64,000 nucleotides of DNA from NCBI RefSeq assembly GCF_964355755.1, contig NC_092680.1:3077001-3141000 (forward strand). Direction: 5' to 3'. The DNA is from Antedon mediterranea. Lineage: Eukaryota > Echinodermata > Crinoidea > Comatulida > Antedonidae. Below, in pieces: positions 2,720-61,986 of this stretch. The notes below the pieces were generated by a model, which searched no databases, had not been told where the DNA came from, and worked only from the letters and a program-made list of their open reading frames with translations. The position numbers and the translations under genes are program-made. Within the stretch, counting starts at the first letter, position 1; every line of letters begins with the position of its first letter.

Positions 2720-3095
2720 ATTGCAAGTTTATTCTCAAAGGGCCCATATATTTACCTACCGTATGTGTTAAACCAAGGGCTCATAAATTTACCTACAGTA
2801 CTTGTGTTAAGCCAAACTCTGGCAGACTGAGAGATTGGGATGTTCCATTCATCGCAAATCAATACATTTGTATAATCGTATATTAAATCTATCAAAATAG
2901 TATTTTTTAAAGAAAATCGGCCTGTCTTCAACATTATGATGGTGTACTCTAGCAATCTATCAAAATAGTATTTTTTAAAGAAAATCGGCCTGTCTTCAAC
3001 ATTATGATGGTGTACTCTAGCTGTTCAACCGGTTTTCAGCTATTAAAAACAATTATCGTAGGAGGAGATAGGAAAATGCGAAGCCTCCTCGCTAT
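2720..3095. repeat. Duplicated block, copy 1 (with an internal 68-bp tandem duplication)
   Basis: This stretch recurs at 3543-3847 with only scattered differences. Copy 1 carries an extra tandem duplication: the segment starting at 2887 is repeated at 2955 (68-bp period), whereas copy 2 has it once. Short open frames on either strand here are coincidental, because they are shared by both copies and resemble nothing known. Confidence 0.9.
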
Positions 3096-8350: not shown

Positions 8351-8920
8351 TTTATTGATTTTCTTTCGTGATTGGTGGACAGTTTTTAAAATTATTTTAT
8401 TACCCTATTAATGCTGTTAAATGCATTTAATATTTAAAAATTGTGCACTCAAGATTTTACTCTTGATGACTATTTTGTTTATGTGTTTAGTTTCGAACCC
8501 AAACCAGTATATGACCCGGGAACATGTTCTATTAATGACTGTGTGTGTTCTCTGGTTCCAAATGGAACCCATGTTTTAGTATGAATTACCTATGAAAATG
8601 AAATAGATTTAATACTATTCCAACATATTATCAATAATAATAAATCATTCTGTAATTTCATTAAAGAAACAATACATTTATAATATTTGTTATTAATATC
8701 ATGTACTGTACGTTGCTAAATGTATTATATTATACAAAATTAAGATCATCATTAGTCTGGCTTCCATATTGGAAACACGCAAGCCTCGCTACCACGTCAA
8801 GGTTGATGATCACAGCGAGGACTTACCTGTGGTTGGTTCCATGTCAAAAACTGTATCTTCCTGTTTTTTCCTGCAATTCCACCATTCATGTATATCTGTT
8901 AGATGGGCTGGTCCGGATAT
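8351..8920. other. Intergenic, with one exon-like segment on the - strand
   Basis: Mostly unremarkable. On the - strand a possible exon ends at CAACCACAG|GTAAGT (donor near 8,823). Its last ~26 nt resemble the exon-like segment at 21,535-21,569 and the donor end of the 41-nt repeat cores. The acceptor side is weak, so it is not called as a gene. Confidence 0.3.
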
Positions 8921-8939
8921 AATCTTCTATGCCACCTAC

Positions 8940-10830
8940 TATGAAGTATCATATCATGTTGAAACCTGCTTAAGAAAAACTATAGTCACCTTAAGGGAAA
9001 GCTTACAATACCAATGCCATCTTACACATTTCCAAAAAATAACCAATATAAAATGCATTAAAACCTAAACCTGTATATTCTTAGCAACACACACAACCTG
9101 CAGTGAAAATTTACAATACCAAGATATAATGCCACCTTACACATTATATAGAATACATTTTCTAAAAAAAAACAACTTAAACCTGTAGATTCTTGGCTAC
9201 ACACAACCTGCAGTGAATATTTTTTTATACCAAGATATTCAATTCACTAAAAATAACCTGATTTGAAGTGCATTGCAACTTAAACCTGTAGATTCTTAGC
9301 TACACACAACCTGTAGTGAACATTTTTTAAACCAAGATAATGAATTTATTAAAAATAACCTGAAGTGCATTGCAACTTAAACCTGTAGATTCTTAGCTAC
9401 ACACAACCTGTAATGAACATTTATTATACCAAGATAATGAATTTATTAAAAATAACCTGATTTAAAGTGCATTGCAACTTAAACCTGTAGATTCTTAGCT
9501 ACACACAACCTGCAGTGATAAATTTATTATACCAAGTTAATGAATTTATTAAAAATAACCTGATTTGAAGTGCATTGCAACTTAAATCTGTAGATTTTTA
9601 GCTACACACAACCTGTAGTGAACATTTATTATACCAAGATAATGAATTTATTAAAAATAACCTGATTTAAAGTGCATTGCAACTTAAACCTGTAGATTCT
9701 TAGCTACACACAACCTGCAGTGAACATTTATTATACCAAGATAATGAATTTATTAAAAATAACCTGATTTGAAGTGCATTGCAACTTAAATCTCTAGATT
9801 TTTAGCTACACACAACCTGTAGTGAACATTTATTATACCAAGATAATGAATTTATTAAAAATAACCTGATTTAAAGTGCATTGCAACTTAAACCTGTAGA
9901 TTCTTAGCTACACACAACCTGCAGTGAACATTTATTATACCAAGATAATGAATTTACTAAAAATAACCTGATTTGAAGTGCATTGCAACTTAAATCTCTA
10001 GATTTTTAGCTACACACAACCTGTAGTGAACATTTATTATACCAAGATAATGAATTTATTAAAAATAACCTGATTTAAAGTGCATTGCAACTTAAACCTG
10101 TAGATTCTTAGCTACACACAACCTGCAGTGATAAATTTTTATACTAAAATAATGAATTTACTAAAAATAACCTGATTTAAAGTGCATTGCAACTTAAACC
10201 TGTAGATTCTTAGCTACACACAACCTGCAGTGAACATTTTTTATACCAAGATAATGAATTTATTAAAAATAACCTGATTTGAAGTGCATTGTAACTGAAA
10301 CCTCTAGATTCTTAGCTACACACAACCTGTAGTGAACATTTTTTAAACCAAGATAATGAATTTATTAAAAATAACCTGATTTGAAGTGCATTGCAACTTA
10401 AACCTCTAGATTCTTAGCTACACACAACCTGCAGTGACCATTTGTTATACCAAGATAATGAATTTACTAAAAATAACCTGCTTTGAAGTGCATTGCAACT
10501 TAAACCTCTAGATTCTTAGCTACACACAACCTGTAGTGAACATTTATTATACCAAAACAATGAATTTATTAAAAATAACCTGATTTGAAGTGCATTGCAA
10601 CTTAAACATGTAGATTCTTAGCTACACACAACCTGCAGTGAACATTTATTATACCAAGATAATGAATTTAATAAAAATAACCTGATTTGAAGTGCATTGC
10701 AACTTAAATCTCTAGATTTTTAGCTACACACAACCTGTAGTGAACATTTATTATACCAAGATAATGAATTTATTAAAAATAACCTGATTTGAAGTGCATT
10801 GCAACTTAAATCAATAGATTTTTAGCTACA
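8940..10830. repeat. Tandem array, ~103-bp unit, about 17 copies
   Basis: Each unit carries the words TTCTTAGCTACACACAACCTG, CCAAGATAATGAATTTATTA and TGCATTGCAACTTAAACCT. The period, measured between successive ACTTAAA words, is about 103 bp. Units alternate subtly (CTGTAG versus CTCTAG), suggesting two-unit amplification steps. The first, more diverged copies start near 8,940-9,180. Confidence 0.93.
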
Positions 10831-11215
10831 CACACACAACTAAAGCTTATAATACCAAGATATAATGCCACCTTACACATTATATATAATAATTTACAAA
10901 AAATATTTAAAATTATTTGAAATGCACTGAAACTTAAACCCCTAGGTTTTTTAGCTACACATAATTCAGTATATCTTAGCAACACACATACCTGTAGGAA
11001 AAGCTTACAATACCAAGATATTGCCACCTTACACGTAATATATATAATAATTTACAACAAATATTTAAAATTATTCAAATACATACCTGTAGAGAAAACG
11101 CAAACCAAATGTATCTTAAATGTGTTTAGTTAGATTTGTATTTGTAGATGCATATAATAATGCTATCTGAAATGAGTAATAGTAAAGAACAATTATTATG
11201 TGCAGGTTGTGTTGT
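10831..11215. repeat. ~160-bp C-type repeats and degenerate 41-nt D segment
   Basis: Diverged versions of the GCCACCTTACACATTAT / CTTAAACCTCTACG repeat seen fully at 11,986-12,692. They are followed by a degraded copy of the segment that appears as a clean 41-nt exon-like core at 12,727, 15,406, 18,190 and 20,415. Here its donor side is broken. Confidence 0.8.
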
Positions 11216-11985
11216 ATGCTTACCTGTGATTGGTTCCAACAGCCTTGCATCAGTATCTCCATATCTGAAAAGGGAAAATGTGAAAAAATTTAATTATACC
11301 ATTGCATAGGCCTTGATGTTTCTTACCTGTGATTGGTTCCAACACTCTTGCATCGGTATGGCCATAACTGAAAAGGGAAAATATAAAGAAATTTAATTAT
11401 ACCATTGCATAGGCCTTGATGTTTCTTACCTGTGATTGGTTCCAACAGCCTTGCATCAGTATCTCCATACCTGAAAGGGAAAATATAAAGACATTTAATT
11501 ATACTATTGCTTAGCTTTTGATGTTTCTTACCTGTGATTGGTTCCTACAGTCTTGCATCGATATGTCCATATCTGAAATGAGAAAATTTAAACAAAATTA
11601 TTATACCATTGAATAGACTGGATATTTCTTACCTGTGATTGGTTCCAACAGCCTTGCATTGGTATGTCCATATCTGAAATGAGAAAGTTTAAAGAAATTT
11701 AATTATACCATCCATAGGCTATGATATTTCTTACCTGTGATTGGTTCCAACAGCCTTGCATCGGTATGTCTATATCTGAAAAGGGAAAATATCAAGACAT
11801 TTATTATACCATTGCATAGACTTGATATTTCTTACCTGTGATTGGTTCCAACAGCCTTGCATCGGTATGTCCATATCTGAAAAGGGAAAATATCAAGACA
11901 TTTATTATACCATTGCATAGGCTATGATGTTTCTTACCTGTGATTGGTTCCAACAGTCTTGCATCGGTATGTCCTTATCTGAAAA
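11216..11985 (-). repeat. B array block 1: 8 units of the ~102-bp exon-like repeat
   Basis: Tandem ~102-bp units. Read on the - strand, each holds a polypyrimidine-AG acceptor (TTTCCCTTTTCAG), a 41-nt core starting ATATGGACAT and ending ACCAATCACAG, and a GTAAGAAA donor. Units differ by substitutions, but the splice-like signals are kept in all eight. Confidence 0.93.
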
Positions 11986-12692
11986 GATATTCTTAGCTAG
12001 CTACACATAATATATCTTAGTTACACACAAACTTACTAAGATATAATGCCACCTTAAAATGAATTTACAAAAAGTAACCTGATTTGAAATGCATAGAAAA
12101 CTTAAACCTCTATTCTTAACTACACTTATATTTCCTAACTACACACTGCAGGGAAATCTTACAATACTAAGATAATGCCACCTTACACATTATAGATAAT
12201 AATTTACAAACACATGTTTAACATTTTTTTAAGGCACTGAAACTTAAACCTCTGCGTTCTTAGCTACACTTAATACAGTATACCTTAACAACAAACATAC
12301 CTGCAGGAAAAGCTTACAATACCAAAATATAATGCCACCTTACACATAATATATCATAATTTACAACACATATTTAACATTATTTGAAATGCACTAAAAC
12401 TTAAACCTCTACGTTCTTAGCTACACTTAATTCAGTTATCTTAGCAACACACATACCTGCAGAAAAAGCTTACAATACCAAGATATAATGCCACCTTACA
12501 CATTATAGATAATAATTTACAACACATATTTAACTTTATTTGAAATGCACTGAAACTTAAACCTCTACGTTCTTAGCTACACTTAATTACAGTATATAAC
12601 ACACATATCTGCAGAGAAAAGCTTACAATACAAAAATAATGCCACCTTATATCATAATTTACAACAAATATTTAAAATTATTCAAACACATA
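11986..12692. repeat. C block between B arrays 1 and 2
   Basis: Starts with a junction word GATATTCTTAGCTAGCTACA that recurs at 14,501, 17,285 and 19,667. It then holds several ~155-160-bp units with CTGCAGGAAAAGCTTACAAT and GCCACCTTACACATTAT. Confidence 0.9.
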
Positions 12693-12726
12693 CCTGTAGA
12701 GAAAACGCAAACCAAATGTACCTTAC

Positions 12727-12767
12727 CTTTGTTTAGTTAGATTTGTATCTGTATAGGTGCATGCTAT
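12727..12767 (-). other. D-type 41-nt exon-like core, copy 2
   Basis: Read on the - strand, TTACTCATTTCAG precedes exactly 41 nt starting ATAGCATGCA and ending AACAAAG, followed by donor GTAAGG. The sequence differs from the B cores, but the length and the splice-site layout are the same. Confidence 0.6.
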
Positions 12768-12815
12768 CTGAAATGAGTAAGAGTAAAGAACAATTATTAT
12801 TTGCAGGTTTTGTTG

Positions 12816-14500
12816 TACTTACCTGTGATTGGTTCCAACAGTCTTCCATTGATATGTTCATAGCTGAAAAGAGGAAATATAAAGAAATTTAATTATACCA
12901 TTGCATAGGCTTAGATGTTTCTTACCTGTGATTGGTTCCTACACTATTGCATCGATATGTCCATATCTGAACAAGGGAAAATATGAAAAAAATTTAATTA
13001 TACCATTGCATAGGCTTTGATATTTCTTACCTGTGATTGGTTCAACAGTTGTGCATCGATATGTCCATATCTGAAAAGGGAAAATATGAAAAAATGTAAT
13101 TTTACCAATACATCTTTGATGTTTCTTACCTGTGATTGGTTCCAACAGTCTTGCATCGGTATGCCATATCTGAAAAAGGAAAATATAAATAAATTTAATT
13201 ATTCCATTGCATAGGCTTTGATTTTTCTTACCTGTGATTGTTTCTAACAGTCTTGCATCGGTATGTCCATATCTGAAAAGGGAAAATATAAGAAATTTAA
13301 TTATACCAATACATCTTTGATGTTTCTTACCTGTGATTGGTTCCAACAGTCTTGAATTGGTATGTCCATATCTGAAAAAGGAAAATATAAAGAAATTTAA
13401 TCATACCATTGTATAGGCTTAGATGTTTCTTACCTGTGATTGGTTGCAACAGTCTTGCATTGGTATATCCATATCTGAAAAGGGAAAATATAAAGACATT
13501 TAGTATATCATTGCATAGCCGTTGAGATTTCTTACCTGTGATTGGTTCCAACTGTCTTGCATTGGTATGCCCATATCTGAAAAGGGAAAATATAAAGAAA
13601 TTTAATTATACCATTGCATAGGCTTTGATGTTTCTTACCTGTGATTGGTTGCAACTGCCTTGCATCAGTATATCCATACCTGAAAGGGAAATATAAAGAA
13701 ATTTAATTATACTATTGCTTAAGTTTTGATGTTTCTTACCTGTGATTGGTTCCTACAGTCTTGCATCGATATGTCCATATCTGAAATGAGAACATTTTAA
13801 GAAAATTATTATACCATTGAATAGACTGGATATTTCTTACCTGTGATTGGTTCCAACAGCCTTGCATTGGTATGTCCATATCTGAAATGGGAAAATATCA
13901 AGACATTTATTATACCATTCCATAGGCTATGATGTTTCTTACCTGTGATTGGTTGCAACTGCCTTGCATCATTATGTCCATACCTGAAAAGAGAAAATAT
14001 AAAGAAATTTAATTATACTATTGCTTCGGTTTTGATGTTTCTTACCTGTGATTGGTCCAACAGTCTTGCATCAGTGCGTGCATATCTGAAATGAGAAAGT
14101 TTAAAGAAATTTAATTATACCATTGCATAGACTTGATATTTCTTACCTGTGATTGGTTCCAACAGCCTTGCATCGGTATGTCCATATCTGAAAAGGGAAA
14201 ATATCAAGACATTTATTATACCATTGCATAGACTTGATATTTCTTACCTGTGATTGGTTCCAACAGCCTTGCATCGGTATGTCCATATCTGAAAAGGGGA
14301 AAAAAATAAAGACATTTATTATACCATTGCATAGACTTGATATTTCTTACCTGTGATTGGTTCCAACAGCCTTGCAACGGTATGTCCATATCTGAAAAGG
14401 GAAAATATCAAGACATTTATTATACCATTGCATAGGCTATGATGTTTCTTACCTGTGATTGGTTCCAACAGTCTTGCATCGGTATGTCCTTATCTGAAAA
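12816..14500 (-). repeat. B array block 2: 17 units
   Basis: Same ~102-bp unit as block 1. Most cores are 41 nt; the cores at about 13,030, 13,130 and 14,046 are 40 nt through single-base deletions. Donors CACAG|GTAAG are intact in essentially all units. Confidence 0.93.
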
Positions 14501-15370
14501 GATATTCTTAGCTAGCTACACATAATATATCTTAGTTACACACAAACTTACTAAGATATAAAGCCACCTTAAAATGAATTTACAAAAAGTAACCTGATTT
14601 GAAATGCATTGAAAACTTAAACCTCTATTCTTAACTACACTTATATTTCCTAACTACACACGACCTGCAGGGAAATCTTACAATACTAAGATAATGCCAC
14701 CTTACACATTATAGATAATAATTTACAAACACATGTTTAACATTTTTTTAATGCACTGAAACTTAAACCTCTGCGTTCTTAGCTACACTTAATACAGTAT
14801 ACCTTAACAACAAACATACCTGCAGGAAAAGCTTGCAATACCAAAATATAATGCCACCTTACACATTATATATAATAATTTAAAACACATATTTAACATT
14901 ATTTGAAATGCACTGAAACTTAAACCTCTGCGTTCTTAGCTACACTTAATACAGTATACCTTAACAACAAACATACCTGCAGGAAAAGCTTACAATACCA
15001 AAATATAATGCCACCTTACACATTATATATCATAATTTACAACACATATTTAACATTATTTGAAATGCACTGAAACTTAAACCTCTACGTTCTTAGCTAC
15101 ACTTAATACAGTATACCTTAACAACAAACATACCTGCAGGAAAAGCTTACAATACCAAAATATAATGCCACCTTACACATTATAGATAATAATTTACAAC
15201 ACATATTTAACTTTATTTGAAATGCACTGAAACTTAAACCTCTACGTTCTTAGCTACACTTAATTACAGTATATAACACACATATCTGCAGAGAAAAGCT
15301 TACAATACAAAGATAATGCCACCTTACACATCATAATTTACAACAAATATTTAAAATTATTCAAACACAT
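14501..15370. repeat. C block between B arrays 2 and 3
   Basis: Copy of the 11,986 block with one or two extra ~157-bp internal units, hence longer (870 versus 707 bp). Confidence 0.9.
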
Positions 15371-15405
15371 ACCTGTAGAGAAAACGGAAACCAAATGTAC
15401 CTTAC

Positions 15406-15446
15406 CTTTGTTTAGTTAGATTTGTATCTGTAGAGGTTCATGCTAT
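15406..15446 (-). other. D-type 41-nt exon-like core, copy 3
   Basis: As at 12,727, with identical acceptor and donor, and again exactly 41 nt. Confidence 0.6.
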
Positions 15447-15494
15447 CTGAAATGAGTAAGAGTAAAGAACAATTATTATTTGCAGGTTTTGTTG

Positions 15495-17284
15495 TACTTA
15501 CCTGTGATTGGTTCCAACAGTCTTCCATTGGTATGTCCATATCTGAAATGAGAAAGTATAAAGAAATGTAATTATACCATTGCATAGGCTTTGATGTTTC
15601 TTACCTGTGATTTGTTCCAACAGTCTTTCATCTGTATGTATGTCTGAAAACAGAAAATATAAAGAGATTTAATTATACCATTGCATAGGATTTGATGTTT
15701 CTTACCTGTGATTGGTTCCAACAGTCTTTCATCTGTATGTCCATATCTGAAGAGGGAAAGTATAAAGAAATTTAATTATACCATTGCATAGGCTTTGATA
15801 TTTCTTACCTGTGATTGGTTCCAACAGTTGTGCATCGATATGTCCATATCTGAAAAGGGAAAATATGACAAAATGTAATTTTACCAATACATCTTTGATG
15901 TTTCTTACCTGTGATTGGTTCCAACAGTCTTGCATCGGTATGCCATATCTGAAAAAGGAAAATATAAATAAATTTAATTATTCCATTGCATAGGCTTTCA
16001 TGTTTCTTACCTGTGATTGGTTCCAACAGTCTTGCATCGGTATGCCATATCTGAAAAAGGAAAATATAAATAAATTTAATTATTCCATTGCATAGGCTTT
16101 GATTTTTCTTACCTGTGATTGTTTATAACAGCCTTGCATCAGTACATCCATATCTGAAAAGGGAAAATATAAGAAATTTAATTATACCAATACATCTTTG
16201 ATGTTTCTTACCTGTGATTGGTTCCAACAGTCTTGAATTGGTATGTCCATATCTGAAAAAGGAAAATATAAAGAGATTTAATCATACCATTGTATAGGCT
16301 TAGATGTTTCTTACCTGTGATTGGTTGCAACAATCTTGCATTGGTATATCCATATCTGAAAAGGGAAAATATAAAGACATTTAGTATATCATTGCATAGC
16401 CGTTGAGATTTCTTACCTGTGATTGGTTCCAACTGTCTTGCATTGGTATGCCCTTATCTGAAAAGGGAAAATATAAAGAAATTTAATTATACCATTGCAT
16501 AGGCTTTGATGTTTCTTACCTGTGATTGGTTGCAACTGCCTTGCATCAGTATCTCCATACCTGCTGAAAGGGAAATATAAAGAAATTTAATTATACTATT
16601 GCTTAGGTTTTGATGTTTCTTACCTGTGATTGGTTCCAACAGTCTTGCATCGATATGTCCATATCTGAAATGAGAAAATTTAAAGAAAATTATTATACCA
16701 TTGAATAGACTGGATATTTCTTACCTGTGATTGGTTCCAACAGCCTTGCATTGGTATGTCCATATCTGAAATGGGAAAATATCAAGACATTTATTATACC
16801 ATTCAATAGGCTATGATGTTTCTTACCTGTGATTGGTTGCAACTGCCTTGCATCATTATGTCCATACCTGAAAAGAGAAAATATAAAGAAATTTAATTAT
16901 ACTATTGCTTCGGTTTTGATGTTTCTTACCTGTGATTGGTTCCAACAGTCTTGCATCAGTGCGTGCATATCTGAAATGAGAAAGTTTAAAGAAATTTAAT
17001 TATACCATTGCATAGACTTGATATTTCGTACCTGTGATTGGTTCCAACAGCCTTGCATCGGTATGTCCATATCTGAAAAGGGGAAAAAAATAAAGACATT
17101 TATTATACCATTGCATAGACTTGATATTTCTTACCTGTGATTGGTTCCAACAGCCTTGCATCGGTATGTCCATATCTGAAAAGGGAAAATATCAAGACAT
17201 TTATTATACCATTTCATAGGCTATGATGTTTCTTACCTGTGATTGGTTCCAACAGTCTTGCATCGGTATGTCCTTATCTGAAAA
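15495..17284 (-). repeat. B array block 3: 18 units
   Basis: Largest block. It contains subtypes with TTTCATCTG inside the core (about 15,607 and 15,709) and one 39-nt core (15,607). Unit order strongly parallels block 2, so the two blocks are copies of one another rather than independent expansions. Confidence 0.93.
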
Positions 17285-18153
17285 GATATTCTTAGCTAGC
17301 TACACATAATATATCTTAGTTACACACAAACTTACTAAGATATAATGCCACCTTAAAATGAATTTACAAAAAGTAACCTGATTTGAAATGCATTGAAAAC
17401 TTAAACCTCTATTCTTAACTACACTTATATTTCCTAACTACACACGACCTGCAGGGAAATCTTACAATACTAAGATAATGCCACCTTACACATTATAGAT
17501 AATAATTTACAAACACATGTTTAACATTTTTTTAATGCACTGAAACTTAAACCTCTGCGTTCTTAGCTACACTTAATACAGTATACCTTAACAACAAACA
17601 TACCTGCAGGAAAAGCTTACAATACCAAAATATAATGCCACCTTACACATTATATATAATAATTTAAAACACATATTTAACATTATTTGAAATGCACTGA
17701 AACTTAAACCTCTGCGTTCTTAGCTACACTTAATACAGTATACCTTAACAACAAACATACCTGCAGGAAAAGCTTACAATACCAAAATATAATGCCACCT
17801 TACACATTATATATCATAATTTACAACACATATTTAACATTACTTGAAATGCACTGAAACTTAAACCTCTACGTTCTTAGCTACACTTAATACAGTATAC
17901 CTTAACAACAAACATACCTGCAGGAAAAGCTTACAATACCAAAATATAATGCCACCTTACACATTATAGATAATAATTTACAACACATATTTAACTTTAT
18001 TTGAAATGCACTGAAACTTAAACCTCTACGTTCTTAGCTACACTTAATTACAGTATATAACACACATATCTGCAGAGAAAAGCTTACAATACAAAGATAA
18101 TGCCACCTTACACATCATAATTTAAAACAAATATTTAAAATTATTCAAACACA
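17285..18153. repeat. C block between B arrays 3 and 4
   Basis: Near copy of 14,501-15,370 in sequence and length. Confidence 0.9.
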
Positions 18154-18189
18154 TACCTGTAGAGAAAACGGAAACCAAATGTACCTTAC

Positions 18190-18230
18190 CTTTGTTTAGT
18201 TAGATTTGTATCTGTAGAGGTGCATGCTAT
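18190..18230 (-). other. D-type 41-nt exon-like core, copy 4
   Basis: Same 41-nt segment with acceptor TTTCAG and donor GTAAGG on the - strand. Confidence 0.6.
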
Positions 18231-18279
18231 CTGAAATGAGTAAGAGTAAAGAACAATTATTATTTGCAGGTTTTGTTGT

Positions 18280-19666
18280 ACTTACCTGTGATTGGTTCCA
18301 ACAGTCTTCCATTGGTATGTCCATAGCTGAAAAGGGAAAATATAAAGAAATTTAATTATACCATTGCATAGGCTTAGATGTTTCTTACCTGTGATTGGTT
18401 CCTACACTATTGCATCGATATGTCTATATCTGAACAAGGGAAAATATGAAAAAAATTTAATTATACCATTGCATAGGCTTTGATGTTTCTTACCTGTGAT
18501 TGGTTCCAACAGCCTTGCATCAGTATGTCCATATCTGAAAAAGGAAAATATAAAGAAATTCAGTTATACTATTGCTTAGGTTTTGATGTTTCTTACCTGT
18601 GATTGGTTCCAAAAGTCTTGCATCATTATGTCCATATCTGAAATGAGAAAGTATAAAGAAATGTAATTATACCATTGCATAGGCTTTGATGTTTCTTACC
18701 TGTGATTTGTTCCAACAGTCTTTCATCTGTATGTATGTCTGAAAACAGAAAATATAAAGAGATTTAATTATACCATTGCATAGGCTTTGATGTTTCTTAC
18801 CTGTGATTGGTTCCAACAGTCTTTCATCTGTATGTCCATATCTGAAAAGGGAAAGTATAAAGAAATTTAATTATACCATTGCATAGGCTTTGATATTTCT
18901 TACCTGTGATTGGTTCCAACAGCCTTGCATTGGTATGTCCATATCTGAAATGAGAAAATTTAAAGAAAATTATTATACCATTGAATAGACTGGATATTTC
19001 TTACCTGTGATTGGTTCAAACAGCCTTGCATTGGTATGTCCATATCTGAAATGGGAAAATATCAAGACATTTATTATACCATTCCATAGGCTATGATGTT
19101 TCTTACCTGTGATTGGTTGTAACTGCCTTGCATCATTATGTCCATACCTGAAAAGGGAAAATATAAAGAAATTGAATTATACTATTGTATAGGCTTAGAT
19201 GTTTCTTACCTGTGATTGGTTGCAACAGTCTTGCATTGGTATATCCATATCTGAAAAGGGAAAATATAAAGACATTTAGTATATCATTGCATAGCCGTTG
19301 AGATTTCTTACCTGTGATTGGTTCCAACAGTCTTGCATCACTGCGTGCATACCTGAAATGAGAAAGTTTAAAGAAATTTAATTATACCATTGCATAGACT
19401 TGATATTTCTTACCTGTGATTGGTTCCAACAGCCTTGCATCGGTATGTCCATATCTAAAAAGGGGAAAAAAATAAAGACATTTATTATACCATTGCATAG
19501 ACTTGATATTTCTTACCTGTGATTGGTTCCAACAGCCTTGCATCGGTATGTCCATATCTGAAAAGGGAAAATATCAAGACATTTATTATACCATTGCATA
19601 GGCTATGATGTTTCTTACCTGTGATTGGTTCCAACAGTCTTGCATCGGTATGTCCTTATCTGAAAT
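18280..19666 (-). repeat. B array block 4: 14 units
   Basis: Same repeat. The block is shorter than block 3 because several interior units are missing; the unit at about 19,104 joins directly to the type found later in block 3. Confidence 0.93.
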
Positions 19667-20380
19667 GATATTCTTAGCTAGCTACACATAATATATCTTA
19701 GTTACACACAAACTTACTAAGATATAATGCCACCTTAAAATGAATTTACAAAAAGTAACCTGATTTGAAATGCATTGAAAACTTAAACCTCTATTCTTAA
19801 CCACACTTATATTTCCTAACTACACACGACCTGCAGGGAAATCTTACAATACTAAGATAATGCCACCTTACACATTATAGATAATAATTTACAAACACAT
19901 GTTTAACATTTTTTTAATGCACTGAAACTTAAACCTCTGCGTTCTTAGCTACACTTAATACAGTATACCTTAACAACAAACATACCTGCAGGAAAAGCTT
20001 ACAATACCAAAATATAATGCCACCTTACACATTATATATCATAATTTACAACACATATTTAACATTATTTGAAATGCACTGAAACTTAAACCTCTACGTT
20101 CTTAGCTACACTTAATACAGTATACCTTAACAACAAACATACCTGCAGGAAAAGCTTACAATACCAAAATATAATGCCACCTTACACATTATAGATAATA
20201 ATTTACAACACATATTTAACTTTATTTGAAATGCACTGAAACTTAAACCTCTACGTTCTTAGCTACACTTAATTACAGTATATAACACACATATCTGCAG
20301 AGAAAAGCTTACAATACAAAGATAATGCCACCTTACACATCATAATTTACAACAAATATTTAAAATTATTCAAACACATA
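19667..20380. repeat. C block between B arrays 4 and 5
   Basis: Copy of the other C blocks, lacking one of the ~157-bp units found at 14,501 and 17,285. Confidence 0.9.
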
Positions 20381-20414
20381 CCTGTAGAGAAAACGGAAAC
20401 CAAATGTACCTTAC

Positions 20415-20455
20415 CTTTGTTTAGTTAGATTTGTATCTGTAGAGGTTCATGCTAT
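20415..20455 (-). other. D-type 41-nt exon-like core, copy 5
   Basis: Same 41-nt segment with intact splice-like signals. Confidence 0.6.
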
Positions 20456-20504
20456 CTGAAATGAGTAAGAGTAAAGAACAATTATTATTTGCAGGTTTTG
20501 TTGT

Positions 20505-21520
20505 ACTTACCTGTGATTGGTTCCAACAGTCTTCAATTGGTATGTCCATAGCTGAAAAGGGAAAATATAAAGAAATTTAATTATACCATTGCATAGGCTT
20601 AGATGTTTCTTTCCTGTGATTGGTTCCTACACTATTGCATCGATATGTCCATATCTGAACAAGGGAAAATATGAAAAAAATTTAATTATACCATTGCATA
20701 GGCTTTGATGTTTCTTACCTGTGCTTGGTTCCAACAGCCTTGCATCAGTATGTCCATATCTGAAAAAGGAAAATATAAAGAAATTCAGTTATACTATTGC
20801 TTAGGTTTTGATGTTACTTACCTGTGATTGGTTCCAACAGTCTTGCATCATTATGTCCATATCTGAAATGAGAAAGTATAAAGAAATGTAATTATACCAT
20901 TGCATAGGCTTTGATGTTTCTTACCTGTGATTTGTTCCAACAGTCTTTCATCTGTATGTATGTCTGAAAACAGAAAATATAAAGAGATTTAATTATACCA
21001 TTGCATAGGCTTTGATGTTTCTTACCTGTGATTGGTTCCAACAGTCTTTCATCTGTATTTCCATATCTGAAAAGGAAAAGTATAAAGAAATTTAATTATA
21101 CCATTGCATAGGCTTTGATATTTCTTACCTGTGATTGGTTCCAACAGTTGTGCATCGATATGTCCATATCTGAAAAGGGAAAATATGACAAAATGTAATT
21201 TTACCAATACATCTTTGATGTTTCTTACCTGTGATTGGTTCCAACACTCTTGCATCATTATGTCCATATCTGAAAAGGGAAAATATAAAGAAATTTATTT
21301 ATACCATTGCATAGGCTTAGATGTTTCTTACCTGTGATTGGTTCCAACACTCTTGCATCGGTATGTCCATATCTGAAAAGGAAAAATATAAAGAAATTTA
21401 TTTATACCATTGCATAGGCTTAGATGTTTCTTACCTGTGATTGGTTCCAACAGCCTTGCATTGGTATGTCAATATCTTAAAAGGGAAAATATAAAGAAAT
21501 GTAATTATACCATTGCATAG
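20505..21520 (-). repeat. B array block 5: 10 units
   Basis: The 5'-most block in the - orientation. One unit (about 20,614) has lost the donor GT (TTTCCTG instead of TTACCTG on +). Another (about 20,718) has GTGCTTGG in the core. The other donors and acceptors are intact. Confidence 0.93.
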
Positions 21521-21534
21521 GCTTTGATGTTCAC

Positions 21535-21569
21535 CTGTGATTGCTTTCCTTGTATTGTCAAAACTAGAT
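21535..21569 (-). other. Divergent 35-nt exon-like segment at the head of the array
   Basis: On the - strand, TTCTTCTCTTTTCAG precedes 35 nt starting ATCTAGTTTTGAC and ending AATCACAG, followed by donor GTGAAC. It shares the donor-end sequence and spacing with the B cores but differs elsewhere, so it may be the single-copy exon from which the array grew. Confidence 0.45.
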
Positions 21570-22043
21570 CTGAAAAGAGAAGAAACATTATTTTATATGA
21601 ACATGTGATTTCTTTGTTTTAAGTGAAGAATTATACACTTTATTATAATTCTTTCTACAATTTGTCGAGGTCTCCCAAATTTATTTTGCATGCTTTCTGT
21701 AACATTTTACATTTTACACAATAAACAATTGATGTGTTAGTATACATGTAACACTTATAGCTGTGTCTGCATTAACTAATAGTTGTCCCAAGAAACCTAA
21801 ATTGTCTGAAAAAAAAAAGAGAGTGCAGGGAAAAATTATTCTTATTATGTGCATACATAAAAACAGTAAAAGGCCCATATAAATGACAAAACATTTATTT
21901 GTGTAAATCTAAAATGTTACAGAAGTACGCGCAGAAACAAAAGCTACCTAAAATCTAACTGCAAAGTACAAGAAGTATAAATATTATGTGATTTAAACCT
22001 AAACATTCTTACTTGGAAATATAAGAATATAAAATAATATTAC

Positions 22044-22118
22044 TTATCTGTCATAAGTGTAGAGAAGCACAACAGGAATAATAATACCAGTCAGCAGTCT
22101 GAGGACTGGAAGTAAGAC
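22044..22118 (-). other. Candidate exon with possible start codon upstream of the array
   Basis: On the - strand a strong acceptor (TTTTTTTTGCAG) precedes 75 nt ending GATAA|GTAATA. An ATG at 22,054-22,052 reads ATG ACA GAT AA in phase 2. Joined to 21,569-21,535 this continues openly as MTDKSSFDNTRKAIT, and exits in phase 1 into the first 41-nt core. A different frame of the same exon reads hydrophobic (LLPVLRLLTGIIIPVVLLY) but stops at TAA. There is no transcript evidence in the sequence itself. Confidence 0.35.
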
Positions 22119-22440: not shown

Positions 22441-22773
22441 AATGTAGGCTCAGTTATTTTCGCTAAAATTGAAAAAAATAAACTATCTTGATGAAATCAG
22501 TGTTGTAAATAGTAATAGAATATATTGAAATTGAAAATTGGCAAATTTGTAGGCCAAAGTAGCATCAGGCTTATGCCTAAAATTTCAAACGAGTTGATCG
22601 AGGGCCTAGGCGAAGAAGTGGTTCATAAAATCAACATTTTCTGTATAAAAATGTGTCATTAAATAAGATAAAGAAGTAAATTATGAGCTAGGGCCTACTA
22701 AAAGACTATATTATAATTGATAACTCGTAATATTTTGTATTAGTGCATATTTTTAAACAAATAAAATACTTAC

Positions 22774-22860
22774 CTCCTCTACGGTCCTTCTCTCTCTTGA
22801 TGTTTCTTCGTCGCCGCCAACTTACGAAATGACAACGTAAGTCGCCGAGTCGGTAACGTG
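22774..22860 (-). promoter_or_regulatory. Candidate first (non-coding) exon and promoter
   Basis: CpG-containing segment with an AAGTTGGCGGC word (YY1-like) followed on the - strand by GTAGAGGAG|GTAAGTAT, an almost ideal donor. No ATG lies before the donor. It is suitably placed as the 5' UTR exon of a - strand transcript running into the repeat field. Confidence 0.4.
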
Positions 22861-23749
22861 ACGAAAACTATCCAAATTGTTAGATGAACTTATTCTAACT
22901 GTGATTGGCTAAATCTTCGTTACTGTTTTTGCTGCAACTCGTTGATTGGTTAATCAATAATTACTGTTGCCCCCGCGTATTCTGAACTATCTCGGAACAA
23001 CGATTGGTCAACTTTTTCACAGAAACACGTGTCTCCTGCATGCTACACACCAAACTCCGCCCAGAGGAAGTTTTAAGAACTTTTTTACTAGAGGGAGCTA
23101 TTCATGGTTGAAGAGTTGCCAGGATCATACAATAATGTTTTATGTTGTTATTATGTATAAGGACTTCAAAACGCATGGACAATTAGGTTATCAAAAGTTA
23201 TTAGCTTAGGGTGTCTAGATGATTGAATTTACGTTAGGTGGCAGTGTGATCGACGTTTCATGTCAAGTTAATATAGTAAACTTGTTTTAATCCATAAGAT
23301 TTAAACTTGAAGTTGATACTTATTAATAGATTAATTTGCTGAATGCATAAATCTAAAGCTGTACTTATTCGCAATATTTCAAACACCATAATATGAATAA
23401 CTAGAGCCTATAATAAAAGGCAACATGAACATTTTTTACCATAATAAACAACTAAACTAAATTAATATATATATTTGGCGGCAAGAACAATTGTATAATC
23501 AGTACAATACTACTACAGATTGTATGAATATTATGATTTTAAAACAAATTTGTTTAGAAATATATTAATAACGTGAAATGCTAGATGTCATAAATTAATA
23601 AATCTAATGTTTTAACAGTTATGAATTAACCGTATCTTATTTTTTTAATCATAATGTTATATGTTATTATTTCAATATGTTAAAATTAGTTACAGATGTC
23701 AGGATAGGCTTTTATGTTAGAATTAAGGCAAAAATAATTATTAGTCCTC

Positions 23750-32062: not shown

Positions 32063-32103
32063 TCAAGTCTTTCATAACAACCTGCAATTTGACAACCATT
32101 GGC

Positions 32104-32652
32104 AGTACAGTACAGTACTAGGCAGTACAGTACTAGGCAGTACAGTACAGTACTAGGCAGTACAGTACAGTACTAGGCAGTACAGTACAGTACTAGGCAG
32201 TACAGTACTAGGCAGTACAGTACAGTACAGTACTAGGCAGTACAGTACAGTACTAGGCAGTACAGTACAGTACTAGGCAGTACAGTACAGTACTAGGCAG
32301 TACAGTACAGTACTAGGCAGTACAGTACAGTACTAGGCAGTACAGTACAGTACTAGGCAGTACAGTACAGTACTAGGCAGTACAGTACTAGGCAGTACAG
32401 TACAGTACTAGGCAGTACAGTACAGTACTAGGCAGTACAGTACAGTACTAGGCAGTACAGTACTAGGCAGTACAGTACTAGGCAGTACAGTACAGGGCAG
32501 TACAGTACAGTACTAGGCAGTACAGTACAGTACTAGGCAGTACAGTACAGTACTAGGCAGTACAGTACAGTACTAGGCAGTACAGTACTAGGCAGTACAG
32601 TACAGTACTAGGCAGTACAGTACAGTACTAGGCAGTACAGTACAGTACTAGC
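32104..32652. repeat. GTACA-rich minisatellite, 15/20-bp units
   Basis: About 550 bp of GGCAGTACAGTACAGTACTA (20 bp), interspersed with 15-bp units missing one GTACA and one 25-bp unit. There is one TACAGGGC interruption near 32,490. Unit-length changes come in steps of 5 bp, as expected of slippage. Confidence 0.97.
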
Positions 32653-39400: not shown

Positions 39401-42400
39401 GTTTTATTTCTTGATTATCGTACACAATGTATATGTGCTTTAACAAAAATCCAGTACCATACATCTGTCCAGATGGGTACTTGAGGTTGTTACCCTAATT
39501 ATAACTAAAACAATACAAAAATAAAATCTGAAAAAAAAACATTTTTGTCCTTAGAGCCTTTTCCCGCATTCCAAAATCACTATGGATTACAATTACTACA
39601 GTAAGGTTTTGCAATATCAACTGACAGTAAATGCAATTTTATGCTCTTGACAAATTAGTAAATACTTTTAATCGCTAATAAAATGTAAAAATTATTTTTT
39701 TAATTTAAAATAATATCAAAATTTGTACCTGTGCATACAAATAAAAAAAAAATTGAAATGCATAACAAATTATGTTTTTTTTTTAAATTTTAATAATTTG
39801 CAAGGTTGAGTGGAGTAATGCTAAGCTTCACACTCCTTGGATCTCCCGAGTGTTTTGGACGCGATAAAACATTTAATAACCATTCACTTTTCAGCTAAGT
39901 GTTGAATTTCTCGCATGGCATTGAACTCATAGCAATTAATTTAATCTGGGTCTGTTTGACCCCATGTCTGTTACTATTCATCTTGCCCTGAGGGAATATC
40001 GCCCCCAATTTGTTGTTTGGATCGAACCTTTTCAGATACACAGGCAATAATTCAATCATGGAAATCTTCTTCTTCCTTCTTTCATTTAGGAACAAACTTC
40101 ATAGTTGAAGGCCACTGCTCCACCATAGTCAATAGACCACTGGTTATAGCTGTTGCAATGCAACTTTTTTGGGGTTTTTGTTTGCATACAGTAAGTTGTG
40201 CATATAAAATGTACAATCCCTAATGTTCCTACTTTTTCTTCATGATTTTGTTGATCAAGAAACATTTTCAATTAGGCTGGGAGGAGAAACGTTTTCGCTC
40301 CTGAAATGCTGCTGGCACCAAACTTTTTAAGGAATGATTAAGGATTGGAGAGTCATTACAGACTTAGACTTATTTGCGGACCTCCTCAGACCTTTTTCCT
40401 AATTTTTTTTGGTAAATCCACCCTTCACAAGAATTCAAATGTTTTTAAATTTTAAAATGTAATATGTATTGTTATTAATTACACTACAGCAAAACATTGT
40501 CTAGCGCTAGCAATTCTTTCGACTGTCACTTCTATTCAGTATAATACAAAAAATGTAAAGTTTAAAACAAAAATGTTTAATATCAATAATTTGTGAATAG
40601 AACAATACATTATGATCATGTTCTAGTCTTACTTCTAATAAATATTTACTTATTTTAGAAGGTTAAATTATCCTTAAAAGAATAATCAACAAACCACACC
40701 CAAAGTTCATTGACAATGCTGTTCACTGGTGCAAAAGTAGTAAGATATTAATTAAATTAATATCACCGCATTGTCAACAATGCATTATAAAACTGCTCAT
40801 CGTTGTTCATCTTTCGTGTAATCAGAATAAAATAAGCAGGTGGAGTTTAGAGACTTAGTGGAGACTCTGCAGTCATGCATTTGTTATCCATTCATTATTA
40901 CATCACAAGTGTTTGTATTTTCACTTTGTGTTATTTATTGATTTGTTAAAATAATAAAATGTTTATGAATTTTGGTGAATATCACACGCTATACAGAAAG
41001 AAAGGGAAAAACAGCTAAAAAGTCATGAAGAAAAACTATTCAGTATTTATTGATAACTTCAGTACAGTGTTTAACATAAATACAAGTATTTAAGTAATTA
41101 TATGTTTTACGATGTATTGTACAGTACAACTACTAGGTTTTATTGATAATATTTATTGCTGCCAATTTCCTAAGCTGACTTTAGATAAGAATGTAGGTCA
41201 TTATGGTCACATGATATGTCTTTTGAATAATGAATACAATTAACTATGATGTTGATTAACACCTGCGTTTAAAAAAAATATTTTTTAATGTTTCTTAACA
41301 AAAACTTAAAAACATAATGTGTGTCTTGTCAGGCACTGGATAGTCGCAATATTTTTGTTTTGTGAAAAATGTTATAGGTAATATCTAAAATTCATTAGTA
41401 GTAGTACCCGTCCATTGTCATACAAAAAGTATCTTATCCTTGCATTTTGCATTAATTAAAATCTGTCAAAATTATAGGCCTACTACTACTGTATTTTAAC
41501 ATGTGATAATAATGAGTGACAATTATGGTACACCGTCAAAAATATATTGCTTAGGCCTATGTTGCATTGGACTAAATAAAAGCTCTGTCTACACGTACAC
41601 TATCAAACTTTATTTTGTGACACAAAAATGTGATGTGCCCATCGGCATACAGTATATGGATATAATGATGTCATATCACCACCATATTTGGGCATATCAC
41701 TGCCAAATTTGGGCACATCAAACTAGTTTGATAGTGTAGATAGTGCTTAACAGATATAAAAATAGTATATTCAACATATATTAATTATTATAAAACAGAT
41801 TCCTATATAAATACACTATCCCTTTAACATTTCAATCTAATATGAATACAGAAATATCTATGGTAATTGGTATTACAATGATGATTATTTAAAATAAATT
41901 AGATATTTTCACTTTCTATTAAATAACAATTGTTTTAATGTATAGAAAGTGAATTTTACTCAAATGGAGACAATTTGATTTATAAAGAAGCCGTGTCCAA
42001 GAATAAATAACATTCTTACTTATTAATTATTGTATACTGTATAAATATTTAATTAAAACTGTTAATGTTGCTTAATCTTAAAAGAAGTTTCAATTTAATA
42101 CAAATGCTGATTAGACTACCAACGGTATAGTAAATATAATTTCACTGTAAAAGGAAATTAAGTTTTGAAAGCATCTTGCGTGCAGGTGGAATTATCTATT
42201 TAAAAGGTTTAATTGTATGTGTTTGTTTTATGTTGGTCATTAAGGTTTAATTGTATGTGTTTGTTTTATGTTGGTCACTAGGTGTAATTGTATGTGTTTG
42301 TTTTATGTTGGTCACTAGGTTTAATTGTATGTGTTTGTTTTATGTTGGTCACTAGGTTTAATTGTATGTGTTTGTTTTATGTTGGTCACTAGGTTTAATT

Positions 42401-45400
42401 GTATGTGTTTGTTTTATGTTGGTCACTAGGTTTAATTGTATGTGTTTGTTTTATGTTGGTCACTAGGTGTAATTGTATGTGTTTGTTTTATGTTGGTCAC
42501 TAGGTGTAATTGTATGTGTTTGTTTTATGTTGGTCACTAGGTTTAATTGTATGTGTTTGTTTTATGTTGGTCACTAGGTGTAATTGTATGTGTTTGTTTT
42601 ATGTTGGTCACTAGGTTTAATTGTATGTGTTTGTTTTATGTTGGTCACTAGGTTTAATTGTATGTGTTTGTTTTATGTTGGTCACTAGGTTTAATTGTAT
42701 GTGTTTGTTTTATGTTGGTCACTAGGTTTAATTGTATATGTTGGTTTTAAGTTGGTCACTAGGTTTAATTGTATGTGTTTGTTTTATGTTGGTCACTAGG
42801 TTTAATTGTATGTGTTGGTTTTAAGTTGGTCACTAGGTTTAATTGTATGTGTTTGTTTTATGTTGGTCACTAGGTTTAATTGTATGTGTTTGTTTTATGT
42901 TGGTCACTAGGTTTAATTGTATGTGTTTGTTTTATGTTGGTCACTAGGTTTAATTGTATGTGTTTGTTTTATGTTGGTCACTAGGTTTAATTGTATGTGT
43001 TTGTTTTATGTTGGTCACTAGGTGTAATTGTATGTGTTTGTTTTATGTTGGTCATTAAGGTTTAATTGTATGTGTTTGTTTTAAGTTGGTCACTAGGTGT
43101 AATTGTATGTGTTTGTTTTATGTTGGTCACTAGGTGTAATTGTATGTGTTTGTTTTATGTTGGTCACTAGGTGTAATTGTATGTGTTTGTTTTATGTTGG
43201 TCACTAGGTTTAATTGTATGTGTTTGTTTTATGTTGGTCACTAGGTGTAATTGTATGTGTTTGTTTTATGTTGGTCACTAGGTTTAATTGTATGTGTTTG
43301 TTTTATGTTGGTCATTAAGGTTTAATTGTATGTGTTTGTTTTATGTTGGTCACTAGGTGTAATTGTATGTGTTTGTTTTATGTTGGTCACTAGGTGTAAT
43401 TGTATGTGTTTTATGTTGGTCACTAGGTGTAATTGTATGTGTTTGTTTTATGTTGGTCATTAAGGTGTAATTGTATGTGTTTGTTTTATGTTGGTCACTA
43501 GGTGTAATTGTATGTGTTTGTTTTATGTTGGTCACTAGGTGTAATTGTATGTGTTTTATGTTGGTCACTAGGTGTAATTGTATGTGTTTGTTTTATGTTG
43601 GTCACTAGGTTTAATTGTATGTGTTTGTTTTATGTTGGTCACTAGGTGTAATTGTATGTGTTTGTTTTATGTTGGTCACTAGGTGTAATTGTATGTGTTT
43701 GTTTTATGTTGGTCACTAGGTGTAATTGTATGTGTTTGTTTTATGTTGGTCACTAGGTGTAATTGTATGTGTTTGTTTTATGTTGGTCACTAGGTGTAAT
43801 TGTATGTGTTTGTTTTATGTTGGTCACTAGGTGTAATTGTATGTGTTTGTTTTATGTTGGTCACTAGGTTTAATTGTATGTGTTTGTTTTATGTTGGTCA
43901 CTAGGTTTAATTGTATGTGTTTGTTTTATGTTGGTCACTAGGTTTAATTGTATGTGTTTGTTTTATGTTGGTCACTAGGTTTAATTGTATGTGTTTGTTT
44001 TATGTTGGTCACTAGGTTTAATTGTATGTGTTTGTTTTATGTTGGTCACTAGGTTTAATTGTATGTGTTTGTTTTATGTTGGTCATTAAGGTGTAATTGT
44101 ATGTGTTTGTTTTATGTTGGTCACTAGGTTTAATTGTATGTGTTTGTTTTATGTTGGTCATTAAGGTGTAATTGTATGTGTTTGTTTTATGTTGGTCACT
44201 AGGTTTAACTGTATGTGTTTGTTTTATGTTGGTCATTAAGGTTTAATTGTATGTGTTTGTTTATGTTGGTTATTAATTAAAACTGATTCCATACAAAAGC
44301 ATTCATATTTTCTCAAATTATTTAAAAGAGAAACATATCTTATGACCATACGCACAGACCTAATTTCTACACTATCAAAAAAATGTGATTTGCCCATACA
44401 ATATATGGAATGGACATGATAATGTCATATCACTACCATAGTGTGATGATAGTGTAGATGAGCTTTACATGGAGTACTCATGATTTTCTATAAAACATTT
44501 TACCATAACTTTTAGGTGGTAGACCTGGAATTATTACAGAATAAATACTAATGTACACTGTAGTTTATATTCTTTCATAACTGTTCATAATTCAAATGTA
44601 GGCCCACTACACTATGTATGACGTTAATACCGGTAGTATAGATATTAGACAGTATAATAATTGATATCCTTATCTGATTCGGTGACAGATTTGACAACAT
44701 TTGCTTAGCTTATCTTCACCATGTATTTGACGTGTGCATCATCAACAATGGAATAGTCCTTCAATCACGTACAGAAGGTCAAAAATAATAAAATGATAAT
44801 ATTAGAAAATACCAGATGTTGTCAAACAGAGGAATTCGTTCGTGTTGGAAGTACTGTTTGTGAATAGTAGTAGATAATAAGTCCAAAGAAGCAATGTGTA
44901 GTTGTATGAGAATCATCTGATTATGGAGAGTTGCATGGTTGTGGTTAGGCCTCCCAGGTTGAATGCCCCTCCCACTCAGACTACTACCGTAAGAAGCTTA
45001 AGCGCCTCTTCTAGGGAGACTTTGTGGTATCCGACAAAAGTGAACATTGGGCTGCAAATTCATCGACCCTTGGGTCGACTACGGGATTCTACTTCTGACT
45101 GGTAGGATTGGTTTTTCGTTGTAATTCATATACTTTTTTTTTAAATAAACGTGAAATAATTGGTCAATACAGATGATCATGTCTCGGAAAACTAGACGCA
45201 TTTGCACTTTAACCAACATTATTGTCTACAGTATATACTGTTTTTTAGGCAACGCATTTTTAAACACACAAAGAAATTACTATCAGTAGGCCTACACTTT
45301 TTGCTTAAAGTATACTGCTGTAGTGTATGGTGTCTATAAGTGTAGGCACTTTCTCTTGTCTACAGTAGCTAAAAAAGTAAAAGTCTTGTCCTGTTCTGTT

Positions 45401-61821: not shown

Positions 61822-61986
61822 TTAAGGTTTAATACTGTTCTACGACACTCACACTAAAATAATTTCCGTAATATTTTCGGAGAAACCATTCTCCGTCCTC
61901 AGCGGATGGTTTTGGAGAATGGTTTCTCCGAAAATATTACGGAAATTATTTTAGTGCGAGTGTTGTAGAACAGTATTAAACCTTAA
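61822..61986. mobile_element. Foldback element, ~75-bp near-perfect arms, TTAA at both ends
   Basis: Left arm TTAAGGTTTAATACTGTTCT... to GAAACCATTCTCC; the right arm is its complement with two or three changes. The loop is only about 15 bp. TTAA at both boundaries may be the target site or part of the arms. Confidence 0.88.

Follow-up and report, generated by a model that had tools for sequence, protein, structure and literature searches.

A tandem array of small exon-like units with well-kept splice sites in the crinoid Antedon mediterranea

Is a long row of similar exon-like units in the genome of Antedon mediterranea a set of exons that can still be spliced, or a minisatellite carrying the silent splice sites of the exon from which it grew? 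The question arises in a window of 64,000 nucleotides (nt) of contig NC_092680.1 (C11:3077001-3141000, hereafter W), the whole stretch of DNA that was analyzed, for which a reading made from the sequence alone had proposed a candidate microexon array of about 67 units on the minus strand. We find that the splice sites and core length of these units are kept about three times better than the remaining sequence. Our preferred but tentative explanation is an exon-derived tandem array that may still be splice competent, belonging to a small, fast-evolving gene family and contributing its units to transcripts singly or sparsely, if at all.

The array itself is largely as the sequence-only reading described it. 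It holds 67 standard units on the minus strand between 21475 and 11224, each made up of an acceptor (TTTCCCTTTTCAG), a core of mostly 41 nt and a donor (GTAAGAAA), and the acceptor tract, the donor, a period of ∼102-103 bp and a consensus core open in all three frames agree with the earlier account. Tandem Repeats Finder (TRF) reports a period of 102-103 bp across 11219-21543, with interruptions; because its scores run into the thousands and further arrays of the unit occur in the genome, the array is beyond chance. Cores measure 41 nt in 58 of the 67 units, 40 nt in five, 39 nt in three and 44 nt in one, and comprise 44 distinct sequences. The donor GT, which the sequence-only reading saw kept in all but about one unit, is present in 66/67, the sole exception being a GA in the unit at 20614-20654. 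An AG was required for entry into this set, and acceptors were therefore judged from two other unit sets. The first, obtained with a looser anchor, contains 73 window units (the 67 standard units, a 35-nt edge unit, four segments starting with ATAGCAT and one decayed copy at 11120-11166) and has AG in 73/73 and GT in 71/73, the AG count being mildly biased because AG itself adds to the motif score that positioned the acceptors.

The row of units is interrupted. TRF identifies ∼157-bp repeats in four stretches (12146-12658, 14590-15335, 17374-18119 and 19756-20344, minus strand), which cut it into five blocks (21475-20511, 19659-18286, 17277-15502, 14493-12823 and 11978-11224, minus strand). 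Before each stretch, on the sense strand, stands a 41-nt exon-like segment of the form ATAGCAT...AAACAAAG|GTAAGG (20415-20455, 18190-18230, 15406-15446 and 12727-12767, minus strand), which is not homologous to the units. These segments are open in phase 0 only, in two of the four window copies and in six of the eight printed copies of W and of the loci A2 and A2b introduced below. The divergent 35-nt edge unit (21535-21569, minus strand) has both AG and GT and is open in two of three frames.

The window unit also forms arrays at at least five other sites in the genome (354 Mb in 18 contigs). A 401-base array query gave 207 matches, of which about 150 are listed; those listed lie on C11 at 1.138-1.152, 1.737-1.760, 3.088-3.099 and 18.393 Mb, on C9 at 24.114-24.130 Mb and on C2 at 14.739-14.744 Mb, and a query derived from C2 recovered the same places among the matches listed. 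Twelve pieces were fetched, and the loci are labeled A1, A2/A2b, A3, C9 and C2; A2 and A2b belong to a single duplicated locus, taken without C11:1746001-1756000 (∼10 kb of A2). Unit number differs by locus (67 standard units in W, 106 scanned in A1, nine in A3 and 40 in C2), and some of the other arrays diverge from that of the window at about 28-30% of sites. The C2 array (L011 4128-9523), which lacks the upstream region shared by other loci, comprises 40 units whose main part is ∼97% alike, with donor GT in 40/40 and AG at the expected place in 35/40 and 2 nt further on in the other five. The arrays show one mark of an exon-bearing minisatellite, a tandem unit of tens to ∼100 bp with a copy number that varies between paralogues. 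Exon and intron were amplified together, the spacers being nearly as similar to one another as the cores, which supports the earlier suggestion that the array grew from one ancestral exon as a minisatellite.

A second unit set, selected with an anchor inside the core that is free of both splice sites, carries the case for splice-site conservation. It consists of 268 units from five fetched C11 pieces (W 62, A1 107, A2 68, A2b 22, A3 nine), limited to units lying 90-115 bp from the previous one, and 224 of these are distinct. GT is present in 259/268 units and AG in 218 of the 224 distinct units. On the unit tree, AG and GT together changed in 10 parsimony steps, where columns of the same base lying outside the splice motifs predict 29.9 (P 0.004), and AG alone in three versus 15.2 (P 0.02); all P values are rough, as units are related by descent and by gene conversion. 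The sequence-only reading had named a comparison of AG/GT with other columns, shared ancestry considered, as the means of refuting it, and the outcome (10 against 30 steps) favors splice-site function. Core length is kept to a similar degree: the core accumulated 16 gap steps (0.39 per nt) and the spacer 81 (1.31 per nt), making insertions and deletions 3.3 times rarer in the core, and the spacer rate is alike in its run-free (1.28 per nt) and run-rich (1.33 per nt) parts. Among 252 units, counted without A3, the ATAGCAT segments and spacers outside 45-75 nt, the core is 41 nt in 227 and the spacer 62 nt in 143. An internal contrast is provided by the neighboring 102-bp array described below, which keeps its putative donor in only 12/16 units.

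The 41-nt length appears to be secondary. Units of 48 nt make up 37/40 at C2 (five of these can be read as 46 nt, with the AG 2 nt further on) and 34/57 at C9, where 18 are 47 nt and five 46 nt; the C9 lengths are those of units with GT, AG and 46-48 nt. A few 48-nt units are present at A1. AGCACCT is what separates the 48-nt form (ATAGCACCTATGG...) from the 41-nt one (ATATGG...), and since other loci carry units of 47 or 48 nt, the shorter core seems to have arisen from a symmetric exon of 48 nt by loss of 7 nt. The simplest order, judging from the distribution of lengths among these loci without an outgroup species, would be 48 nt first, followed by the deletion and expansion on C11.

The arrays share more than the unit. 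Some 2 kb upstream (23731-21502) align with A1, A2, A3 and C9 at 73-91%, and the region occurs in the same orientation at all four of these loci; a 561-base query from it matches W, A1, A2, A3, C9 and a 101-base fragment at C11:995701, with no match at C2. In the five-paralogue alignment the best windows are a CCAAT-rich one at 23004-22885 (0.82 and 0.78 identical) and one at 21732-21675 (0.81). The first belongs to a promoter-like conserved block with three CCAAT boxes, which together with the exon that would follow it spans 22774..23064 on the minus strand. A putative noncoding first exon ends at 22774, before GTAAGTATTT, and a putative second exon (22044..22118, minus strand) has the acceptor TTTTTTTTGCAG and the donor GTAATA; its ATG ACA GAT AA| would connect in frame with the edge unit (MTDKSSFDNTRKAIT). 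These putative 5′ exons are short and offer an ATG with a short hydrophobic stretch and no long open reading frame.

The phase left by the edge unit is a 1-nt overhang, and it is in this phase that single units have the fewest stops. The 239 41-nt units of C11 have 57, 64 and 13 stops by frame, the lowest count following a 1-nt overhang, and the 46-48-nt units of C9 have stops in 5/57 after a 1-nt overhang versus 20 and 16 in the other frames. We consider this coincidence suggestive at best. Once regional conservation is allowed for, codon-level selection is undetected in every frame: there is no codon-position rhythm in the core (mean steps 5.4, 6.7 and 6.7) and no excess of synonymous changes across the C11 units.

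Several observations weigh against a splice-competent array. Taken alone, GT does not differ significantly from its matched columns (seven steps vs. 14.7, P 0.12), and neither does the donor GT of the preceding unit (five vs. 14.7, P 0.07). At C9, GT stands at the expected place in just 66/105 loosely anchored units. Compared across loci, cores are scarcely more similar than spacers (0.85 vs. 0.75-0.77 for C11 against C2), and in several locus pairs the order is reversed. Depletion of nonsense changes is absent in all frames when sites are matched (18 vs. 21.3 in frame 2, P 0.18). An unmatched test had given 18 vs. 31.5 expected in frame 2, one of three frames (P 0.009); we discount this signal because the stop-adjacent sites of frame 2 sit in the best-kept end of the core, and the depletion is rejected as significant after site matching. 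In the five-way alignment the windows of the edge unit are poorly conserved (0.52 and 0.43 identity), and just before it an AATAAA at 21685 lies inside the well-kept 0.81 window, so that the array might begin only after the end of the conserved gene. AATAAA also recurs inside the array on the sense strand.

The main rival is a splice-silent minisatellite, which we regard as quite possible. On this view, tandem amplification took in an old exon with its intron; the resulting units are either passed over in splicing or situated beyond the end of the gene, and their splice sites are relics of recent date. Amplification of whole units with core and spacer almost equally similar, the lack of a coding signal in any frame, the existence of the C2 array without the shared upstream region, the AATAAA signals within the array and the degenerate units of C9 all accord with it. 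What it does not readily accommodate is that AG, GT and core length are better kept than other sequence, and that this is also seen in arrays diverged by ∼28-30% from that of the window.

Under the preferred reading of a still splice-competent array, the minisatellite unit would be one small exon plus its intron, located within the transcription unit of the gene family or immediately after it. The ancestral exon may have been 48 nt long (16 codons, symmetric); on C11 a 7-nt deletion would have given the 41-nt version, which then expanded, and unequal exchange would also have copied whole blocks of units together with the ATAGCAT segment and the 157-bp repeats. The spliceosome would still recognize single units, yielding transcripts with none, one or a few of them. 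Since two units in tandem change the frame, including several would in most cases lead to a premature stop; the product could be either an RNA or a short, variable peptide.

A more specific version, which we think unlikely, is a splicing lottery, in which one micro-exon is drawn from 67 (W) or more than 100 scanned (A1) near-identical candidates and the 41-nt length polices the choice. In its strictest form, exactly one unit would enter each transcript, as in exon 6 of insect Dscam1. This choose-one scheme is a strict form of the preferred explanation and is not independent of it. Equal core lengths (58/67), the frameshift that 41 nt imposes on double inclusion and the low stop count in the edge-unit phase speak for it; no docking or selector complementarity was found between the spacer consensus and five regions (z −1.5 to 1.4 in a coarse test), core variety is small at 44 distinct among 67, and selection at the peptide level was not found. 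We therefore hold strict one-per-transcript choice to be improbable.

Inclusion of all units in order, as a repeat protein whose phase rotates at 41 nt and stays constant at 48 nt, fares worse still. The sequence-only reading had entertained such a phase-rotating protein, with the caveat of one TGA met in order; in fact, the window array read in order runs into stops in each of its three registers (22, 24 and 20), as does the A1 array (25, 20 and 23). With no register open, codon positions varying alike, no synonymous excess and no depletion of site-matched nonsense, the long-protein design is rejected, and what stands of the microexon proposal is a row of exon-like units with kept splice sites. 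All three frames of the 41-nt consensus are open, and at C2 one register runs through all 40 units without a stop (635 codons; one and five stops in the other registers), yet at C2 this is to be expected without selection, given that its units hardly differ from one another and that those with GT, AG and 46-48 nt have every frame open. Serial inclusion is accordingly a very improbable reading. Inclusion of one or a few units is easier to reconcile with the in-order stops than full inclusion, as the frame changes with a second 41-nt unit.

A regulatory array, with the CCAAT box of each unit (GGAACCAATCAC) serving as a repeated binding site and not as part of an exon, would suit the CCAAT-bearing core end being the best-kept part on C11 and the three CCAAT boxes of the upstream block, but is just as improbable because CCAAT is lost in the C2 consensus (CCGAT) and in C9 types t3 and t7, where AG and GT remain. 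Nor does a structured RNA emerge from the units: no Rfam match covers the array, and a single unit folds no better than shuffles (z 0.18). Rfam gave four matches in the window (E up to 1; 61846-61958 and 32539-32650), all below the gathering score, and none at gathering level in the 10 of 12 fetched loci that were scanned (all but L005 and L009).

We found no description of such an array in the open-licence PubMed Central literature on tandem exons, micro-exons, exon-bearing repeats and silk genes. Flagelliform spider-silk genes consist of repeated exon-intron units in which exon and intron are amplified and homogenized together. The present arrays resemble them in this co-amplification and differ in the nature of the exons, those of silk genes being long in-frame coding exons. 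Paralogues from human segmental duplications, such as the morpheus genes, have variable internal minisatellites (De Grassi and Ciccarelli 2009, PMC2812944); these repeats reach 39 copies, can be read in more than one frame and in some cases create new splice sites and introns. As in the crinoid, expansion differs between young paralogues and alters gene structure, but the human repeats described there appear to lie mostly within exons, whereas here an acceptor, a core and a donor belong to every single unit, of which the window array has 67.

Dscam1 exon 6 of Drosophila has 48 mutually exclusive alternatives (PMC1431710) and offers a comparable layout, a long tandem row of duplicated exons of equal length with similar introns. 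Tandemly duplicated exon-like units with canonical splice sites are found here too, with GT in 66/67 and AG/GT kept above matched columns. The Dscam1 exons encode diverged parts of immunoglobulin domains and use an anchor sequence that pairs with the introns (PMC1431710), whereas the crinoid units are near-identical, 41 nt long and without coding selection, and no docking sequence was found. The micro-exon genes (MEGs) of schistosomes likewise combine many very short exons with fast evolution, and PMC4671649 gives most of them as <36 bp and 26/33 as symmetric, with long flanking exons and a signal peptide. The units of C11 are by contrast 41 nt, asymmetric and near-identical; only three of the 67 window cores (those of 39 nt) are divisible by 3, symmetric 48-nt units being found at C2 and C9.

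If the units are spliced, they constitute a natural test bed for a spliceosome facing dozens of near-equal small exons separated by introns of ∼62 nt, and a model of how a Dscam-type cluster could start as an exon-carrying minisatellite. Were the lottery true, the exon cluster would exceed that of Dscam1 exon 6 in size and would illustrate the passage, through a 7-nt deletion, from a symmetric exon of 48 nt to a self-limiting asymmetric one. Arrays of 41, 47 and 48 nt in one genome offer a ready comparison of symmetric and asymmetric units. If the units are not spliced, the case demonstrates that conserved splice sites can mislead gene annotation.

Behind the units lies a further 102-bp tandem array (9173..10834, minus strand) that is related to the 157-bp repeat. 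It contains an AG|GT-like element with AG in 16/16 units and a putative second GT in 12/16, and a query from it matches only near arrays of the exon-like unit, save for one 64-bp match at C11:19572120. In this array and in the 157-bp blocks a pyrimidine-AG abuts a GT (TTTTCCTGCAG|GTATGT), resembling a recursive splice site. Next follows an exon-like segment (8827..8936, minus strand), of which the A1 copy is open for 38 codons and the window and A2 copies are interrupted. It is kin to a tandem 125-nt segment on C9, where a 161-bp tandem array of 4.6 copies (C9:24132767-24133512; R5 ∼22767-23512) bears the exon-like segment; the two copies that were matched are each open for 41 codons.

An ∼80-nt element at 8740..8822 (minus strand) is not part of the array and also occurs inside a dispersed repeat. 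It has 37 matches genome-wide, five fetched copies (L013-L017) are identical, printed flanks included, and it is kept in the W, A1, A2 and C9 copies while the flanks differ. The window copy with a GTAA prefix folds better than shuffles (z −3.2), no Rfam match was obtained for the element, and it may represent a conserved domain within a short dispersed element. The same-strand neighbor behind the arrays, outside the array itself, is COX5A, with an exon at 7132-6812 (minus strand; Pfam E 9e-32) and a further exon-like stretch downstream.

Elsewhere in the window, a long near-perfect hairpin at 61850-61958, with a sub-threshold mir-3118 match on both strands, is probably a short inverted-repeat element. 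A 37-bp minisatellite at 42205-44270 comprises about 56 copies with 96% matches and a strong GC skew, a 20-bp tandem array (GGCAGTACAGTACAGTACTA) at 32101-32651 has 28 copies, and 2886-3021 is a perfect 68-bp tandem duplication (100% matches).

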